Of a DNA stretch of 35,550 nucleotides, positions 24,265 through 31,466 are shown piece by piece (the stretch's first letter is position 1; every line of letters begins with the position of its first letter). The notes below the pieces were generated by a model, which saw only the letters and a program-made list of their open reading frames with translations, was not told the DNA's origin and searched no databases. Where the stretch lies: contig JAIXSA010000148.1 in the NCBI GenBank assembly GCA_027484915.1, positions 1-35,550 on the forward strand, written 5' to 3'. A program made the position numbers and the translations under genes. The stretch comes from Paracoccaceae bacterium. GTDB taxonomy: Bacteria > Pseudomonadota > Alphaproteobacteria > Rhodobacterales > Rhodobacteraceae.

Positions 24265-25499
24265 TGGACGGCGACATCCGCGTGAACACCTATGACGACG
24301 GCTCGAAGGATTTCGAGACCGGCGAACAGCGCATCCGCAACTTCAATATCAACTTCGGCCCACAGCATCCGGCGGCGCATGGCGTGCTGCGCCTGGTGCT
24401 GGAGCTGGACGGCGAGATCGTCGAACGCTGCGACCCGCATATCGGCCTGCTGCATCGCGGGACCGAGAAGCTGATGGAAAGCCGGACCTATCTGCAGAAC
24501 CTGCCGTATTTCGACCGCCTAGACTATGTGGCGCCGATGAACCAGGAACATGCCTGGTGCCTGGCGATTGAACGCCTGACCGGGACGGTGGTGCCGCGTC
24601 GGGCCAGCCTGATCCGGGTGCTGTTCTCCGAGATTGGCCGCGTTCTGAACCACCTTCTGAACGTGACCACGCAGGCGATGGACGTGGGCGCGCTGACGCC
24701 TCCGCTATGGGGCTTCGAGGAACGCGAAAAGCTGATGGTCTTCTACGAGCGTGCCTCGGGCGCGCGGCTGCATGCGGCCTACTTCCGGCCCGGTGGCGTG
24801 CACCAGGACCTGACGCCGCAGCTGATCGACGATATCGACGCCTGGGCCGAACAGTTCCCCAAGGTGCTGGACGATATCGACGGTCTTCTGACCGAGAACC
24901 GCATCTTCAAGCAGCGCAATGCCGATATCGGCGTGGTGACCGAGGCTGACATCCAGAAATGGGGCTTCTCTGGCGTCATGGTGCGCGGCTCGGGCCTGGC
25001 CTGGGACCTGCGCCGCGCCCAGCCTTATGAGTGCTACGACGAGTTCGACTTCCAGATCCCCGTCGGCAAGAACGGCGACTGCTATGACCGCTACCTCTGC
25101 CGGATGGAGGAGATGCGTCAGTCGACCAGCATCATCCGCCAGGCCTGTGCCAAGCTGCGGGTGGAAAAGGGCGATATTCTGGCCCGCGGCAAGATCACGC
25201 CACCGAAGCGGGGCGAGATGAAGACCTCGATGGAAGCCTTGATCCACCACTTCAAGCTTTACACCGAAGGGTTCCACGTGCCCGCGGGTGAGGTCTACGC
25301 CGCCGTCGAGGCGCCGAAGGGCGAGTTCGGGGTCTATCTGGTGGCCGATGGCACCAACAAGCCCTACCGCGCCAAGATCCGCGCGCCCGGCTACCTGCAC
25401 CTGCAGTCGATGGACTACATCTGCAAGGGCCACCAGCTGGCCGACGTCAGCGCCATCATCGGCACGATGGACATCGTCTTTGGCGAGGTCGACCGGTGA
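24264..25499 (+). CDS. nuoD: NADH-quinone oxidoreductase subunit D
   Basis: The 411-residue 49-kDa subunit forms most of the quinone pocket with NuoB. It has [18 protein letters not shown] (the His-bearing loop near cluster N2), [31 protein letters not shown], and a C-terminal DIVFGEVDR that ends at the quinone-facing Arg. ATG 24264 overlaps the nuoC stop by one base; GTG 24261 would add one residue. The next short ORF begins inside its stop (GTGA). Confidence 0.98.
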
Positions 25500-25594
25500 T
25501 CGCGCTGGGGATTGCTCCGTTTCTTCTGCTGGGGATCGCGGTCCTGCCCGTCGGCGTGATCGCGGCCCCGGCCTATATCGCTGGAATGTTCTGA
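25496..25594 (+). CDS. 32-residue hydrophobic ORF between nuoD and nuoE
   Basis: A GTG at 25496 overlaps the nuoD stop (GTGA), and the frame runs 32 codons to a TGA whose last base is the A of the nuoE ATG (TGATG). The product, starting [20 protein letters not shown] and ending AYIAGMF, is almost wholly hydrophobic and could form one membrane helix. Both ends couple exactly to core genes, and nuoE has only a weak ribosome site of its own, which favours real translation. I recognise no family. It might instead be a translational bridge whose peptide does not matter. Confidence 0.5.
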
Positions 25595-26772
25595 TGCTGC
25601 GTCGCCTTCACAAGGACCAACCCGCCTCGTTCGCCTTCACTCCGGCGAATCTGGCCTGGGCCAAGGGCCAGATCTCCAAATACCCCGAGGGCCGTCAGGC
25701 CAGCGCGATCATCCCGCTTTTGTGGCGCGCGCAGGAGCAGGAGGGATGGCTGAGCCGTCCCGCCATCGAATACGTCGCGGACATGCTGGGAATGGCCTAC
25801 ATCCGGGCGCTGGAAGTGGCGACGTTCTACTTCATGTTCCAGCTGCAGCCGGTCGGGTCCGTGGCCCACGTCCAGATTTGCGGCACGACCTCCTGCATGA
25901 TCTGCGGCGCCGAAGATCTGGTGGCCGTGGCGAAAGAGCTGATCGCTCCGACGCCGCACACCGTGTCGGCGGACGGCAAGTTCAGCTGGGAAGAGGTGGA
26001 ATGCATGGGCGCCTGCGCCAATGCGCCGATGGCCCAGATCGGCAAGGATTACTATGAGGACCTGACGGGCGAGAAACTGCGCGAGCTGATCGGGCGGTTC
26101 CGCGCGGGTGAGGTCCCGGTGCCGGGGCCGCAGAACGGGCGGTATGCGGCGGAACCCATCGGGGGACTGACCAGCCTGAAAGAGTTCGAGTCGGGCCGCA
26201 CGCAGTACAACGCCAGCGCGCAGGCGGCGGTGGACCTGAAGGACACCGTGAAGCGGATCGACGGGACCGAAGTGCCGCTGACGACGCCGTGGCTGGGCAA
26301 GGCTGCGGCTGTGACCGCCGCCAAGGGCCGCCAGACCGAGCCGAAGCCCGGCGCGGGCGCTGTGGCCGATGCCACGGGTGCCACGGTGCAGGAAGCCAAG
26401 GCCTCTTCCAAGGGCAAGCCGAAGTCCGACGGCAATGCGCCGAACGCCACGCCGCTGGCGACGCCGAAGGCCAAGGCCTCGGGTCAGGCGGGCGGCGTGC
26501 AGCCCGCGGGCCTGTCGGCGCCGAAGGGCGGCAAGGCGGATGACCTGAAGCTGATCGTCGGGATCGGCCCGAAGCTGGAGGCCCTGTGCAACAAGCTGGG
26601 CTTCTTCCACTTTGACCAGATCGCCAACTGGACCGAGGGCGAGATCGCCTGGGTCGACGAGAACCTGGAAGGCTTCCGGGGTCGGGTGACGCGCGACAAA
26701 TGGGTGGCACAGGCGAAGGTGCTGGCTGCGGGCGGCAGCGTCGCCGACGCGGAAGCCGCGGCAAAGGCATAA
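25594..26772 (+). CDS. nuoE: NADH-quinone oxidoreductase subunit E with long linker and C-terminal helix-hairpin-helix-like domain
   Basis: A 392-residue protein whose first ~175 residues are ordinary NuoE: thioredoxin-like fold with the [2Fe-2S] N1a ligands Cys96, Cys101, Cys137 and Cys141 (ICGTTSC and CMGAC). Many bacterial NuoE proteins end near 160-240 residues. Here an extra ~200 residues follow: a charged segment ([17 protein letters not shown]), a Lys/Ala/Pro/Gly-rich linker, and a compact domain at about 312-381 ([20 protein letters not shown] ... [19 protein letters not shown]). That domain is repeated in the next two genes. The GIGPKLE turn suggests a helix-hairpin-helix. NuoE works with NuoF in the NADH-oxidising module; the role of the extension is unknown. 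Confidence 0.96.
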
Positions 26773-26811
26773 CGGACTGCGGAAGGTGAATTGCGTGCAG
26801 GGTGCAGCGGG

Positions 26812-27687
26812 ATGATGGACGGCGACGACGACACGACGATCGGCACGGGTGGCTGGGTCCTGGTGGGCGTTTCCGGGCTGGTCACCTTTGCCGTTCTGCG
26901 TGGCTGGTTTCACTACCTGCTGGTCCCGTCGCTGCTCTTCGCCCTGGCCATCGCCCTGATCGTGCTTCTGGTGCTGTACCGGCTTGCCGAAGCGGTGAAC
27001 CGCTACGATGACGCGGAAGAGGCCAGCCGGGTCCGCAAGGTTGTCCCGGCTTCGGATGTCGGCATCCGGACCGGCGAGGGGGCAGCCATCCCCGCCGCGA
27101 TGGCTGTTCCGGTGCGATCCGACGCCGCGGTGGTGCCGCAGCGGCCCTCGTCCGTCGTGCGTCCGCTGGCCGAGGTTGAGGCGCCTCCGGTGATCCTGCC
27201 GGTCAGCCTGGTGGTCGAGGCGGAGGCAGAGGTCGCGGCCTTGGCTGCGAAGCCTGCGGCCAGCGGCAAGCCAAAGACCAAGGCCAAGGCGGACGCAAAA
27301 CCCAAGGCCGCGTCAAAGGCTGGGGCGACGGCGAAGACGAAGGCCGAGGCGAAGCCAAAGGCAGAGCCGAAAGCGAAAGCCGCGAAGGCCCCGAAGACCA
27401 AGCCCGCGGGCCTGGTGCGGTTGCAGGCCGCGCGCGGCGGCAAGGCGGACGACCTGCAAGAGATCGAGGGCATTGGCCCGGCGCTGGAGAAGCTGTTGAA
27501 CAGCCTGGGCTTTTACCACTTCGACCAGCTTGCTGCCTGGACCGAAGCCGACGTGGCGCTGATCGACGCGGAAATGAAGACGTTCAAGGGGCGCATCACG
27601 CGCGACAAATGGGTGGAGCAGGCGAAGATCATCGTCAGCAACGGGCTTGAGGCGTTCCGGGAACGCGCGAGGGCCAATGACTACTAA
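26812..27687 (+). CDS. Membrane protein with Lys/Ala-rich linker and helix-hairpin-helix-like domain
   Basis: The 291-residue protein lies between nuoE and a second similar gene. It has a short acidic N-terminus (MMDGDDDTTIG), two hydrophobic helices (WVLVGVSGLVTFAVLRGWF and LLVPSLLFALAIALIVLLVLY) joined by a few residues, then a cytoplasmic-type charged stretch. A Lys/Ala/Pro-rich linker (about 140-205, many KAKA/KPKA steps) leads to a domain at 209-278, GGKADDLQEIEGIGPALEKL ... GRITRDKWVEQAKIIVSNG, ending RARANDY. The last 70 residues match the NuoE C-terminal domain and the next protein closely. I chose ATG 26812; a TTG at 26791 with a nearby GGAAGG is an alternative. Function unknown; the domain type usually binds nucleic acid, which is odd here. 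Confidence 0.85.
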   Translation: MMDGDDDTTIGTGGWVLVGVSGLVTFAVLRGWFHYLLVPSLLFALAIALIVLLVLYRLAEAVNRYDDAEEASRVRKVVPASDVGIRTGEGAAIPAAMAVPVRSDAAVVPQRPSSVVRPLAEVEAPPVILPVSLVVEAEAEVAALAAKPAASGKPKTKAKADAKPKAASKAGATAKTKAEAKPKAEPKAKAAKAPKTKPAGLVRLQAARGGKADDLQEIEGIGPALEKLLNSLGFYHFDQLAAWTEADVALIDAEMKTFKGRITRDKWVEQAKIIVSNGLEAFRERARANDY

Positions 27688-27734
27688 GGCCAACGGCGGC
27701 CCCCTGCGGGCTGCAGCAACGGGAGTGACATGGA

Positions 27735-28307
27735 ATGCGTAGAGCAGAAGCTGTGAATGCGCCCTCGCTTGGTGGGTGGCTCATCGGTGCGGCGATGGGG
27801 CTGGTGGCGTTCGGCGTCCTGGTCGTCATCGGCGAGTTCGACCTGGTCCCCGCCGTGGCGATGGCCGGGATCGTCGCGGCGGTGGCCGGATTGATCATGG
27901 GCATGCCCTGGGGCGCGTCCGCCCCGCGCGTGGCCGCGACGCCGGTCGTCCATGCGGCGGCACCCGCAGCTGCCCCGGTTGCCTTTGTCTCGACCCCTAA
28001 GGCCGCGCCCGCTCCGTCCAACAGCGAAGGTCCGGCCCGGCTTGCCGCACCGCGCGGTGGCAAGGCCGACAACCTGAAGGAAATCGAAGGCATCGGTCCG
28101 GCGCTGGAGAAACTGGTCAACGAGATGGGCTTCTTCCATTTCGACCAGATCGCCGGGTGGTCCGATGCCGACGTGGCCTGGGTCGATGCCAACCTCAAGG
28201 GCTTCAAGGGCCGCGTGACCCGTGACCGCTGGGTGGCACAGGCCAGGATCATCGTGGCCGATGGGCTTGCGGCCTTTCGCGAGCGGGCCAAGACCAACAA
28301 CTATTGA
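27735..28307 (+). CDS. Second membrane protein with helix-hairpin-helix-like domain
   Basis: A 190-residue shorter relative of the preceding protein. Two hydrophobic helices (GGWLIGAAMGLVAFGVLVVIG and AVAMAGIVAAVAGLIMGM) are followed by an Ala/Pro linker (about 63-105) and the domain at 108-177, GGKADNLKEIEGIGPALEKL ... GRVTRDRWVAQARIIVADG. It ends RAKTNNY, like RARANDY in the preceding gene. By eye this domain is closer to that of the preceding protein than to NuoE's, so the pair probably arose by duplication. Start ATG 27735 follows a GGGAG 9 bases upstream; an overlapping ATG at 27730 is out of frame. No function is known to me. Confidence 0.85.
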   Translation: MRRAEAVNAPSLGGWLIGAAMGLVAFGVLVVIGEFDLVPAVAMAGIVAAVAGLIMGMPWGASAPRVAATPVVHAAAPAAAPVAFVSTPKAAPAPSNSEGPARLAAPRGGKADNLKEIEGIGPALEKLVNEMGFFHFDQIAGWSDADVAWVDANLKGFKGRVTRDRWVAQARIIVADGLAAFRERAKTNNY

Positions 28308-28311
28308 TCCC

Positions 28312-28539
28312 ATGATGCAGACCCGTCCCGATCCAGCAGAAGTCCGTCGCGCCCGTCAGGCGCGGCTGGTGGGCATCGTGCTTGCGGTGACGATGGTGCT
28401 GTGGATGGGGGCCCAGTATCTGGGCGGACAACTCGGGTTGGAGACGCGCTACGTGTTCCTCTTCGACCTATGTGCCATCGCGGCCTTCGTCTGGGCCCTG
28501 GTGGTGACGTATCAGATCTGGCGCGGACGCCGGGGTTAG
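28312..28539 (+). CDS. DUF5337-type two-TM small protein
   Basis: 75 residues with a basic N-terminus (RPDPAEVRRARQARL) and two hydrophobic helices (VGIVLAVTMVLWMGAQYLGG; FLFDLCAIAAFVWALVVTYQIW). Sequence and place in the nuo operon, between nuoE and nuoF, match the DUF5337 family I know from Rhodobacteraceae. It is likely an inner-membrane protein, and an accessory or assembly role in complex I is a guess from location. It starts 5 bases after the upstream stop and ends 9 bases before nuoF. Confidence 0.85.
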   Translation: MMQTRPDPAEVRRARQARLVGIVLAVTMVLWMGAQYLGGQLGLETRYVFLFDLCAIAAFVWALVVTYQIWRGRRG

Positions 28540-28548
28540 GAAGACCAA

Positions 28549-29844
28549 ATGCTCAAGGATCAGGACCGCATTTTCAGCAACCTCTACGGGATGCATGACC
28601 GCAGCCTGAAGGGCGCGATGAAGCGTGGCCATTGGAACGGCACCGCCGAGATCATCAAGCGCGGGCGCGACACGATCATCGAGCAGGTGAAGGCCAGCGG
28701 CCTGCGCGGCCGGGGTGGCGCGGGCTTCCCGACCGGCCTCAAGTGGTCGTTCATGCCAAAGCAGTCGGACGGCCGTCCGTCCTATCTGGTGGTCAACGCC
28801 GACGAATCCGAGCCGGGGACCTGCAAAGACCGCGAGATCATGCGCCACGATCCGCACACGCTGATCGAAGGCTGTCTGATCGCGAGTTTCGCGATGAACG
28901 CCAACACCTGCTATATCTATATTCGCGGCGAATACATCCGTGAGCGTGAGGCGCTGCAGGCGGCCATCGACGAATGCTATGACGCGGGGCTTCTGGGGAA
29001 GAACGCGGCCAAGTCGGGCTGGGACTTCGACCTTTACCTGCACCATGGGGCAGGGGCCTATATCTGCGGCGAGGAAACGGCACTTCTGGAAAGCCTGGAA
29101 GGCAAGAAGGGCATGCCCCGGATGAAGCCGCCGTTCCCGGCCGGTTCCGGTTTGTACGGCTGCCCGACCACGGTGAACAACGTCGAATCCATTGCCGTCG
29201 TCCCGACGATCCTGCGCCGGGGCTCTGACTGGTTCGCCTCGTTCGGCCGGCCCAACAACACCGGGACCAAGCTTTTCGGGATCTCGGGCCACGTGATGCA
29301 GCCCTGCGTCGTCGAAGAGGCGATGTCGATCCCGCTGAAAGAGCTTCTGGAACGGCACTGCGGCGGCGTGCGCGGTGGCTGGGACAACATCAAGGCGGTG
29401 ATCCCGGGCGGGTCCTCGGTTCCCTTGCTGACCAAGGCACAGTGCGACGACGCGATCATGGACTTCGACTGGCTGCGCGAGCAGCGGTCGGGTTTGGGGA
29501 CGGCGGCGGTGATCGTGATGGACAAGTCCACCGACGTCATCAAGGCGATCTGGCGGCTGTCGAAGTTCTACAAGCACGAAAGCTGCGGCCAGTGCACGCC
29601 TTGCCGCGAAGGCACGGGCTGGATGATGCGCGTGATGGACCGGCTGGTGCGCGGCGAGGCCGAGGTCGAAGAGATCGACATGCTTCTGTCCGTGACCAAG
29701 CAGGTCGAAGGCCACACCATCTGCGCGCTGGGTGATGCGGCGGCCTGGCCGATCCAAGGCCTCATTCGCGCCTTCCGCGACGAGATCGAGGACCGGATCA
29801 AGGCCAAGCGCACCGGCCGCATCAGCGCGGTGGCTGCCGAATGA
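28549..29844 (+). CDS. nuoF: NADH-quinone oxidoreductase subunit F (NADH- and FMN-binding)
   Basis: A 431-residue subunit that binds NADH and FMN and begins electron transfer. FMN/NADH-binding motifs are [27 protein letters not shown] and [17 protein letters not shown]. The N3 [4Fe-4S] ligands are Cys346, Cys349 and Cys352 in [12 protein letters not shown] and Cys392 in HTICALGD. Good AGGAAG ribosome site. The C-terminus ends AVAAE and overlaps the next lipoprotein gene by 4 bases (ATGA). Confidence 0.98.
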
Positions 29845-30573: not shown

Positions 30574-30972
30574 ATGCTTCGCACCACCCTTATCGCCCTG
30601 GCTCTTGCCGCCACGCCGGCTTTCGCGCTGGTGCCGATCAACGAGAACCCCGAAATCCGCGACAAGCTTCTGCAAGGCTTCATCGGTGACGCCATCGCCG
30701 ACAACTGCCCGACCATCGAGCCGCGCAACCTTCGCGCGCTGGGAGAGCTGAACAAACTGCGCGACTTTGCGCTGAAGCAGGGCTACGAGGCCAGCGTCGT
30801 GCGGGAATTCGTCACTTCCAAGGAAGAGAAGGCCAAGTTCAAGGCGGAAGCCGCGGAATGGCTGAAGGCCAAGGGCGCCGAGCCGGGCAATGCCGAGGCC
30901 TATTGCAAGATCGGTGAAGAGGAAATCGCCAAGGACAGCCTGATCGGCTATCTCTTGAGGTCGAAAGAATGA
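30574..30972 (+). CDS. DUF5333-type periplasmic protein
   Basis: A 132-residue exported protein. Signal peptide MLRTTLIALALAATPAFA, then a helical mature domain LVPINENPEIRDKLLQGFIG ... DNCPTIEPRNLRALGELNKLRDFALKQGYEASVVREFVTS, with two Cys (DNC, YCKIG). This resembles the DUF5333 family found in Rhodobacteraceae nuo loci. ATG 30574 has a GGAGG 6 bases upstream. The frame is open back to an ATG at 30451 overlapping the previous stop, but that would add 41 residues that mask the signal peptide. The 119-base gap before it is the longest non-coding stretch inside this part of the operon. Confidence 0.85.
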   Translation: MLRTTLIALALAATPAFALVPINENPEIRDKLLQGFIGDAIADNCPTIEPRNLRALGELNKLRDFALKQGYEASVVREFVTSKEEKAKFKAEAAEWLKAKGAEPGNAEAYCKIGEEEIAKDSLIGYLLRSKE

Positions 30973-31466
30973 CCGAAGCCCGTCACCTGGCCGAGTTGAA
31001 CGTGGGGCGCCTTCTGGCGCCCACGGATGACCCGCGCGTGGCCGAGTTCATGGCCGCGCTTGACCGGGTGAACGGGATGGGCAAGCGCATGCCCGGCTTC
31101 GTCTGGATGATGGAAGGCTCGGGCGAGCCGGGCACCGGGAATACGGAAGCCAAGATCGAGGGCGACCCGCAGTTCGTGTCGAACCTGACCGTCTGGGAAG
31201 GCGTCGAGCCGCTGGAGCAGTTCGTCTTCAACACCGTCCACCGCGCGTTTTATGAGCGGCGGGCGGAGTGGTTCGAGGTGCTGGGCCGGATGCATTTCGT
31301 CATGTGGTGGGTGCCTGCGGGGCATAGGCCCACATTGGACGAGGCTTTGGCGCGGCTGAAGCATCTCGAGGCGCATGGCGACAGTGACCATGCGTTTGGG
31401 TGGAAATACCTCAAGGAAGCGCGGCTGTGGCAGACGCGCGGCTGTGTCCAAGTGGCGGCGGAGTAG
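30969..31466 (+). CDS. DUF3291 domain protein
   Basis: The 165-residue cytoplasmic protein resembles DUF3291: HLAELNVGRLLAPTDDPRVAEFMAALDRVN at the start, FVWMMEGSG, FVSNLTVWEGVEPLEQFVFNTVHRAFYERRAEWFE, and MWWVPAGHRPTLDEALARL. The fold is thought to be ferredoxin-like, related to dimeric alpha/beta-barrel monooxygenase-like proteins, but no activity is established. ATG 30969 overlaps the DUF5333 stop (ATGA). Why it lies in the nuo operon is unclear. Confidence 0.85.
   Translation: MTEARHLAELNVGRLLAPTDDPRVAEFMAALDRVNGMGKRMPGFVWMMEGSGEPGTGNTEAKIEGDPQFVSNLTVWEGVEPLEQFVFNTVHRAFYERRAEWFEVLGRMHFVMWWVPAGHRPTLDEALARLKHLEAHGDSDHAFGWKYLKEARLWQTRGCVQVAAE

Follow-up and report, generated by a model that had tools for sequence, protein, structure and literature searches.

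Introduction

Protein-O of Dinoroseobacter shibae is a subunit of the reaction center-light-harvesting 1 complex (RC-LH1), where its two-helix hairpin lies between the reaction center (RC) and light-harvesting complex 1 (LH1) and leads into a long loop (PMC12079452; PDB chain 8yy9_O). According to that publication, its gene sits between nuoE and nuoF, its C terminus resembles the C termini of NuoE and other proteins, its C-terminal domain is invisible in the map, and the function of protein-O is called unknown. Here, we describe a complex I operon in a stretch of 35,550 nucleotides (the window: positions 1 to 35,550 of contig JAIXSA010000148.1, assembly GCA_027484915.1) from a Paracoccaceae bacterium, in which NuoE and two membrane proteins encoded just downstream, orf2 and orf3, end in copies of one domain of about 70 residues, hereafter the tail. 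Tentatively, and with somewhat less than an even chance of being right, we predict that the tail is a docking module common to NuoE and to proteins of the protein-O type (O proteins).

Several described systems can be compared with this locus. Protein-O has been published as a speculated part of RC-LH1 assembly. The hairpin of protein-U (PufY) in the RC-LH1 of Rhodobacter sphaeroides structurally resembles that of protein-O, but its sequence is distinct and the accessible text describes no such tail for it (PMC12079452). Two further PDB entries are 9wqv, titled LH1-RC from Rhodovulum sulfidophilum, for which our literature search found no publication, and 9lts, another D. shibae RC-LH1. NuoE proteins with a tail are already in databases as NF009040 of NCBIfam (PRK12373; NADH-quinone oxidoreductase subunit E with a long C terminus), a model whose name assigns the tail no function. 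The NuoE of the window is a member (580.3 bits against a cut-off of 514; 171.6 bits for PF01257), and we saw no difference between the two.

Already published (PMC12079452) are thus protein-O itself, the place of its gene in D. shibae, and the likeness of its tail to NuoE. What is new here is the arrangement across the family, the occurrence of O genes in genomes without the reaction center genes pufL and pufM (pufLM), the contrast in conservation between tail and hairpin, the likeness of tails within genomes, the existence of two O paralogues, and the other carriers of the tail. A literature search, with most subscription papers outside it, turned up neither the family-wide linkage to nuo nor O persistence without pufLM, an exchange of tails between NuoE and O, or paired O genes. 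Searches on L21 with a helix-hairpin-helix, on a C-terminal extension of Rhodobacter NuoE, and on reading frames in nuo operons listed no paper on the tail.

Results

Three copies of one tail domain

Over 70 ungapped positions, NuoE and orf2 share 42 identical residues, NuoE and orf3 share 47, and orf2 and orf3 share 49 (60-70%), whereas the best of 10,000 shuffles reached 14-16. This confirms an earlier interpretation of the window, made from its letters (the sequence-only reading), which had claimed three copies of about 70 residues within the complex I operon. The motifs that it quoted for the tail are present. The boundaries that it gave stand for NuoE and orf3, but the copy of orf2 is at residues 208-277 instead of 209-278, counted from the ATG at 26815 that we took as the start. 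When the orf3 domain was searched against the whole genome (E ≤ 1), it was found in three places only, at 7.7e-50 (itself), 1.2e-36, and 2.2e-31. Neither this single sequence nor a 10-row profile revealed a fourth copy in the genome, which is 95% complete.

Long linkers separate these tails from the rest of the proteins. In the model of NuoE, blocks of 10 residues have a predicted local distance difference test score (pLDDT) of 85-97 from residue 301 on and of 29-44 in the linker (231-300), a leash of about 70 disordered residues. The core of this model is poor (mean pLDDT 64.9; predicted template modeling score [pTM] 0.32; 32 near relatives), and we used it only for the linker and the tail. 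The sequence-only reading had also placed two membrane helices and a Lys/Ala/Pro linker in each membrane protein. The helices hold, in orf3 by model and in orf2 by eye (a plain hydrophobicity window gave three stretches in orf2 and one in orf3). So does the Lys-rich linker of orf2, but that of orf3 is made of Ala, Pro, and Val, with 4 Lys plus Arg in 47 residues. The linker of NuoE has 11 in 81.

Relatives of protein-O in a complex I operon

Sequence matches to structures in the PDB link both membrane proteins to protein-O. The tail of orf3 matched 8yy9_O at 4.8e-28 and 9wqv_a at 1.1e-26, and orf2 matched 9wqv_a (4.9e-26) and 8yy9_O (4.1e-25) within its linker and tail; beyond these two chains, no PDB sequence matched the tail convincingly (next best E, 0.15). 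The AlphaFold2 model of orf3 (mean pLDDT 86.3, pTM 0.51) has helices at residues 12-31 and 37-56, blocks of pLDDT 57-61 in the linker at 61-90, and a confident C-terminal domain. Foldseek superposed it on 8yy9_O with a root mean square deviation of 1.0 over 45 columns (probability 0.96, E 2.1). This match must be to the hairpin, because that chain holds only the 52-residue hairpin, and the E-value is weak because a hairpin alone cannot yield a strong one. Pfam gave weak matches to HHH_5, Cdd1, and Acyl-thio_N only, which we dropped as identities of the two proteins. We conclude that orf2 and orf3 are protein-O relatives, chiefly on the grounds of their tails, their layout, and where their genes lie, with the model as a further ground for orf3.

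The likeness to D. shibae protein-O covers the N-terminal two-helix hairpin, the long loop, a tail of the same family, the position between nuoE and nuoF, and a host with reaction center genes. The window differs in having two tandem copies and no Cys in either hairpin. Its genome encodes pufL, pufM, and PufX (PF11511, 81 bits) and has no match to the reaction center cytochrome family (pufC), whereas D. shibae has a tri-heme cytochrome. With chain a of the R. sulfidophilum LH1-RC, the hairpin fold and the tail are homologous, but at our threshold no sequence match extends beyond linker and tail. Membership of the window's O proteins in an RC-LH1 is putative.

A family trait

To place the locus in its family, we used a sample of 150 family genomes at least 90% complete, including that of the window. 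The tail domain occurs in 137 of them, pufLM in 57, and nuoF in 145 (E ≤ 1e-150). We read the nuoE-nuoF interval in 144 genomes and the window and scored 143, dropping G120 and G130, whose contigs begin inside the interval; G093, with a short contig and an 85-residue NuoE match, was scored as lacking tail and O, a possible undercount. Membrane segments were counted with a plain hydrophobicity window. Of the 143 genomes, 116 have a tailed NuoE, 90 have a separate gene for a membrane protein with the tail between nuoE and nuoF, and 126 have at least one of the two. The arrangement is a family trait, and the copies form the nuo-linked set that the sequence-only reading had proposed. The presence of the NuoE tail and that of O are coupled in a plain test (odds ratio 3.8, p 0.0035), with a median p of 0.625 on the tree described below.

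A second separate tail copy was found in 11 of the 143 intervals: nine without a predicted membrane segment, one (G060) with one segment, and the window as the eleventh. We had considered the membrane-free proteins as phasins and rejected this, as their N-terminal parts lacked an NCBIfam match (three proteins) or a Pfam match (two) in the four of ten that were scanned, one by both. Two hairpin-type copies, as read, occur only in the window among these intervals. A NuoE tail with two membrane copies is present in five other loci (L180, L181, L182, L184, and L186) among the best 80 of 472 named ones. Each membrane copy of the window is closest to its own counterpart in L180, and the O duplication therefore predates the split between the lineage of the window and L180. 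The closest named relatives of the window's genome (G000) are Tabrizicola, and, as judged by these comparisons, the Tabrizicola-like clade carries two O paralogues.

Possibly interchangeable tails on two kinds of protein

The constraint on O proteins falls on the tail: mean pairwise identity among 93 of them is 0.653 in the tail and 0.244 in the hairpin. Their linkers are Ala/Pro-rich and of 45-272 residues (median 120). Between genomes, mean tail identity is 0.653 for NuoE with NuoE, 0.653 for O with O, and 0.645 for NuoE with O; the two kinds of tail separate only weakly.

Within a genome, the two tails are more alike. In 79 genomes, the identity between NuoE and O tails is 0.699 in the own genome, against 0.662 across genomes, a value that none of 5,000 permutations reached, nor any of 5,000 stratified by GC content at third codon positions (GC3). 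Fourfold-degenerate sites follow the same pattern (0.471 against 0.396; 0/5000, and 1/5000 when stratified by GC3). When each genome is paired with its closest one on the tree, the own-genome value also exceeds that of NuoE with the other's O (0.666; Wilcoxon p 0.0009, n = 79, 50 up and 28 down), equals that of NuoE with the other's NuoE (0.699), and lies just below that of O with the other's O (0.710). In genome G094, the tails are 97% identical and all compared fourfold sites are identical. The plain reading of this likeness is that it suggests repeated gene conversion between neighbors. As the converted tails persist, the tails of NuoE and O would therefore be interchangeable. The proposal of the sequence-only reading that the three copies are a set of parts that meet fits this likeness, but the set is not exclusive to complex I, given the relatives in RC-LH1 and the other carriers of the tail.

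The likeness could also mean that the copies have no joint role: local duplication and gene conversion would spread the tail, and each protein would use its copy for itself. The likeness at fourfold sites, the tails of G094, and the tandem duplicates in the Tabrizicola-like clade would all be expected from such a process. However, near-identical tails with diverged fourfold sites need selection on the protein, and this is what we see in G003 (95% and 0.47) and in G030 (85% and 0.48); G030 we took as D. shibae, as the start of the protein in its interval matches 8yy9_O over the residues shown. With a pattern that points to such selection, we consider the absence of any joint role highly improbable.

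O proteins in genomes without pufLM

Are O proteins a part of photosynthesis? The O gene is present in 42 of 54 genomes with pufLM and in 48 of 89 without (Fisher p 0.0045), and the NuoE tail goes in the opposite direction, with 39 of 54 against 77 of 89 (p 0.047); both tests ignore kinship. On a quick tree of NuoE and NuoF (142 rows, without G093), the O/pufLM comparison has 8 supported independent pairs, which on average change the same way 2.4 times against 0.4 (median p 0.5). The membrane proteins could be RC-LH1 gap subunits like protein-U, their place among nuo genes an accident and the tail a passenger. The hairpin is indeed matched by the RC-LH1 structures 8yy9 and 9lts of D. shibae and 9wqv of R. 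sulfidophilum, the window's genome has pufL, pufM, and PufX, and O is more frequent with pufLM. Yet this excess may be real or a product of kinship, the tail is conserved and the hairpin is not, and 48 genomes without pufLM keep O in place. Therefore, O cannot be only a photosynthesis part, and we find a restriction to the reaction center unlikely.

The Cys residues of the hairpin tell a similar story. In D. shibae, a disulfide closes the hairpin, a trait described as unique among RC structures (PMC12079452). A Cys near the start and another after the second helix occur in 37 of the 48 O-bearing genomes without pufLM, which also speaks against a role confined to the reaction center. Among O-bearing genomes with pufLM, the pair is present in 14 of 17 with pufC only, in 7 of 20 with a PufX-like match only, in 1 of 4 with neither, and in 0 of 1 with both (of 30 PufX-like matches, G065, E 5.9e-4 and without pufLM, was excluded from the PufX group). 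Counted by protein, these are 37 of 48 without and 22 of 44 with pufLM; the 33 of the 92 counted O proteins that lack the pair include both of the window. The hairpin Cys pair is widespread among O proteins in general, and genomes bearing PufX, that of the window included, have it less often.

Fuscovulum blasticum DSM 2131 (L217; the present name of Rhodobacter blasticus) has both the NuoE tail and the O gene. The accessible part of the publication on its RC-LH1 names RC, LH1, and PufX only, which also weighs against O as a mere gap subunit. As a separate observation, the pufL frame of the window's genome (L179, contig C130) has a TAG 16 sense codons ahead of the next stop; this early stop may be real or an assembly error, either being possible.

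Nucleic acids or proteins as possible partners of the tail

The best fold matches of the orf3 model outside RC-LH1 are NusA C-terminal domains, which have no sequence link to the tail: Foldseek gave the NusA C-terminal domain 1wcn at E 0.25 and the NusA AR2 domain bound to SuhB (6ib8), a protein-protein complex, at E 0.90. Because of their length, these matches must lie on the tail. This type of fold serves both nucleic acids and protein contacts. The sequence-only reading had raised a nucleic-acid link to respiration. In such a link, the GIGP hairpin of the tail would bind DNA or RNA, and the respiratory membrane would thereby be tied to the nucleoid, mRNA, or ribosomes. Such a hairpin is found in helix-hairpin-helix domains (HHH_5, PF14520: 17.8 bits for orf2, below the gathering cut-off of 27, and no match for NuoE or orf3). 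The tail also occurs on ribosomal L21 and in an S2 model, Lys plus Arg outnumber Asp plus Glu in the leashes of all three window proteins, and ten diverse tails all share R53 and R56. However, these ten also share D5, E18, D44, and D57, the net charge of the window tails is -3, -3, and 0, and in the 93 O proteins it has a median of -3 for tails (range -8 to +4) and for leashes. The idea thus gained no support from charges or from the weak NusA matches. A nucleic-acid role of the tail is disfavored and, in our view, quite improbable; the acidic charge and the NusA-SuhB match weakly favor protein contacts instead.

Other carriers of the tail

The expectation that the copies would always co-occur with nuo genes across Alphaproteobacteria holds for the best 80 of 472 relatives (in named genomes, chosen by closeness to the window), all 80 of which adjoin nuoE and/or nuoF. 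It does not hold for the copies carried by L21, by a DUF2189 protein, and by single-span proteins encoded beside OmpA-family genes, so that the loci without a nuo link named in advance as evidence against a joint system do, in part, exist. We read nine such copies, chosen by hand among the best matches listed as examples and not as counts. Eight have one N-terminal membrane segment and one is multi-span with a DUF2189 match. An OmpA-family gene lies directly upstream in seven of the eight single-span loci (L260, L261, L263, L264, L265, L266, and L268); in the eighth (L262), the scanned upstream frame matched nothing. These single-span proteins, with an N-terminal membrane segment, a charged middle, and the tail, are a second recurrent home of the tail. 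The DUF2189 protein (L267:3961-5265, minus strand) ends in the tail, and a gene for a BipA-type GTPase adjoins it on the same strand.

Class-wide, the domain was found in 23 of 241 genomes, 19 of them outside the family. The 28 loci read include four non-family genomes in which NuoE has the tail, four loci with L21-like carriers, and a variety of membrane proteins. TIGR00061 confirmed two of the L21-like carriers, and the others are presumably L21, judging by a sequence motif. In two loci of other Alphaproteobacteria (L278 and L284), membrane proteins carry two tandem tails. The NCBIfam models for L21 (NF008915/6), S2 (NF008966), and the phasin PhaH (NF045508) contain the same domain at 53-77 bits. 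Their carriers differ from ours: the window proteins reach 64-77 bits at best against whole-protein cut-offs of 193-526, over the tail and some linker. By these matches, the tail is a module used widely in the class by a minority of genomes, and the NuoE-tail fusion reaches beyond the family.

This variety could indicate an assembly or quality-control handle, recognized by a general factor (a chaperone, a protease, or insertion or ribosome-linked machinery), with NuoE and O as mere clients that never meet. Carriers as different as L21, the S2 and phasin models, the OmpA-neighbor proteins, and the DUF2189 protein would fit a handle, as would the position of the tail near the C terminus, behind a leash, in most copies read. 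Yet the window's genome has the tail solely in the nuo operon, which is odd for a general handle, and the nuo copies are alike within genomes while six single-span copies are not consistently so. We regard a general handle as rather unlikely, while giving it real weight.

The locus and its neighbors

The features of the locus are collected in Table 1. The three tail genes lie between nuoD and nuoF within the complex I operon, and NuoA, B, C, D, F, G, and H were matched around the set, NuoA below the cut-offs of its models. From nuoE through orf2, orf3, and the DUF5337 gene to nuoF, the gaps are of 42, 47, 4, and 9 bases, a spacing as in an operon, to judge from the sequence. The DUF5337 gene, between orf3 and nuoF, is only a candidate member of the tail set.

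Table 1. Features of the nuoE-nuoF region, in window positions
Feature	Positions	Strand	Description	Basis
nuoE	25594..26772	+	392 aa, 24-kDa-type [2Fe-2S] subunit with C-terminal tail	
Domain copy 1	26527..26736	+	NuoE residues 312-381	Sequence and pLDDT blocks
orf2 (O1)	26815..27687	+	Protein-O-like membrane protein, 290 aa	PDB sequence matches, hydrophobic N terminus
orf2 transmembrane hairpin	26851..26985	+	Approximate	Hydrophobicity of translation, by eye
Domain copy 2	27436..27645	+	orf2 residues 208-277	Sequence comparison
orf3 (O2)	27735..28307	+	Protein-O-like membrane protein, 190 aa	AlphaFold2, tail matches
orf3 transmembrane hairpin	27768..27902	+	Residues 12-56	Helices in AlphaFold2 model
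Domain copy 3	28056..28265	+	orf3 residues 108-177	Sequence; PDB matches
DUF5337 small protein	28312..28539	+	Last gene ahead of nuoF	PF17272, 110 bits
nuoF	28549..29844	+	Right border of the set	NF010120, 849.7 bits; TIGR01959, 660.5 bits

Genes for DUF5337, DUF5333 (30628-30972), and DUF3291 (30969-31466) proteins, all on the plus strand, are interspersed among the nuo genes. A 32-residue hydrophobic frame with a GTG start (25496-25594, plus strand) has a 4-base overlap with the nuoD stop and a single base in common with the nuoE ATG. Short hydrophobic frames at this junction also occur in a few relatives (G072, G044), and others have longer, different frames.

Discussion

NuoE lies at the far end of the cytoplasmic arm of complex I. 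If the tail is a docking module, it would be a small domain for protein-protein docking at the end of a long, flexible leash, with one copy hanging from this tip and the others from transmembrane hairpins of the protein-O type, on the same side of the membrane. The published cytoplasmic disulfide (PMC12079452) implies that both ends of the hairpin are cytoplasmic, in which case the O tail is so too. All tails would then be in one compartment, where contacts with one another or with a common partner could form. The NuoE and O tails of one species would then recognize the same thing, be it that partner or one another, and complex I and the O-bearing membrane assembly would thereby be kept together or handled by the same factor. 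Relatives of the O proteins belong to RC-LH1 in at least two phototrophs, and in non-phototrophs the hairpin may belong to some other membrane assembly.

Several observations weigh against a docking module common to NuoE and O. For 78 of 116 NuoE tails, the closest tail in a different genome is again that of a NuoE, and for 61 of 93 O tails it is again that of an O protein. The fourfold sites share the likeness found within genomes, so that gene conversion alone may explain it, and the nearest genomes used as a control are distant (mean tree distance 0.456), so that lineage-wide drift in composition may contribute. The six single-span tails outside nuo, in ten comparisons with the nuo tails of their own genomes, ranked from 1 to 82 with no pattern. 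The fold matches are weak, none reaching E ≤ 0.001, and the tail is also found on proteins without a known link to complex I. Finally, 27 of the 143 NuoE proteins have no tail, and the solved NuoE chain 8qby_E (239 residues), which we take to be from P. denitrificans, matches only residues 1-236 of the window NuoE. Complex I as such can therefore do without the tail.

The docking reading has a more specific form, which we find unlikely: the tails would work as plug and socket, or as plugs to a common socket, tethering complex I, through NuoE, to the hairpins of RC-LH1, and in non-phototrophs to another membrane complex. To our knowledge, it is not settled how purple and aerobic phototrophic bacteria arrange their respiratory and photosynthetic complexes together in one membrane. 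If true, this form of docking would provide a physical tether between photosynthesis and respiration. In any case, a family of RC-LH1 subunits is encoded in the complex I operon, bears a tail apparently exchangeable with that of NuoE, and persists in genomes without pufLM. The reading of protein-O as a part of RC-LH1 assembly may change accordingly.

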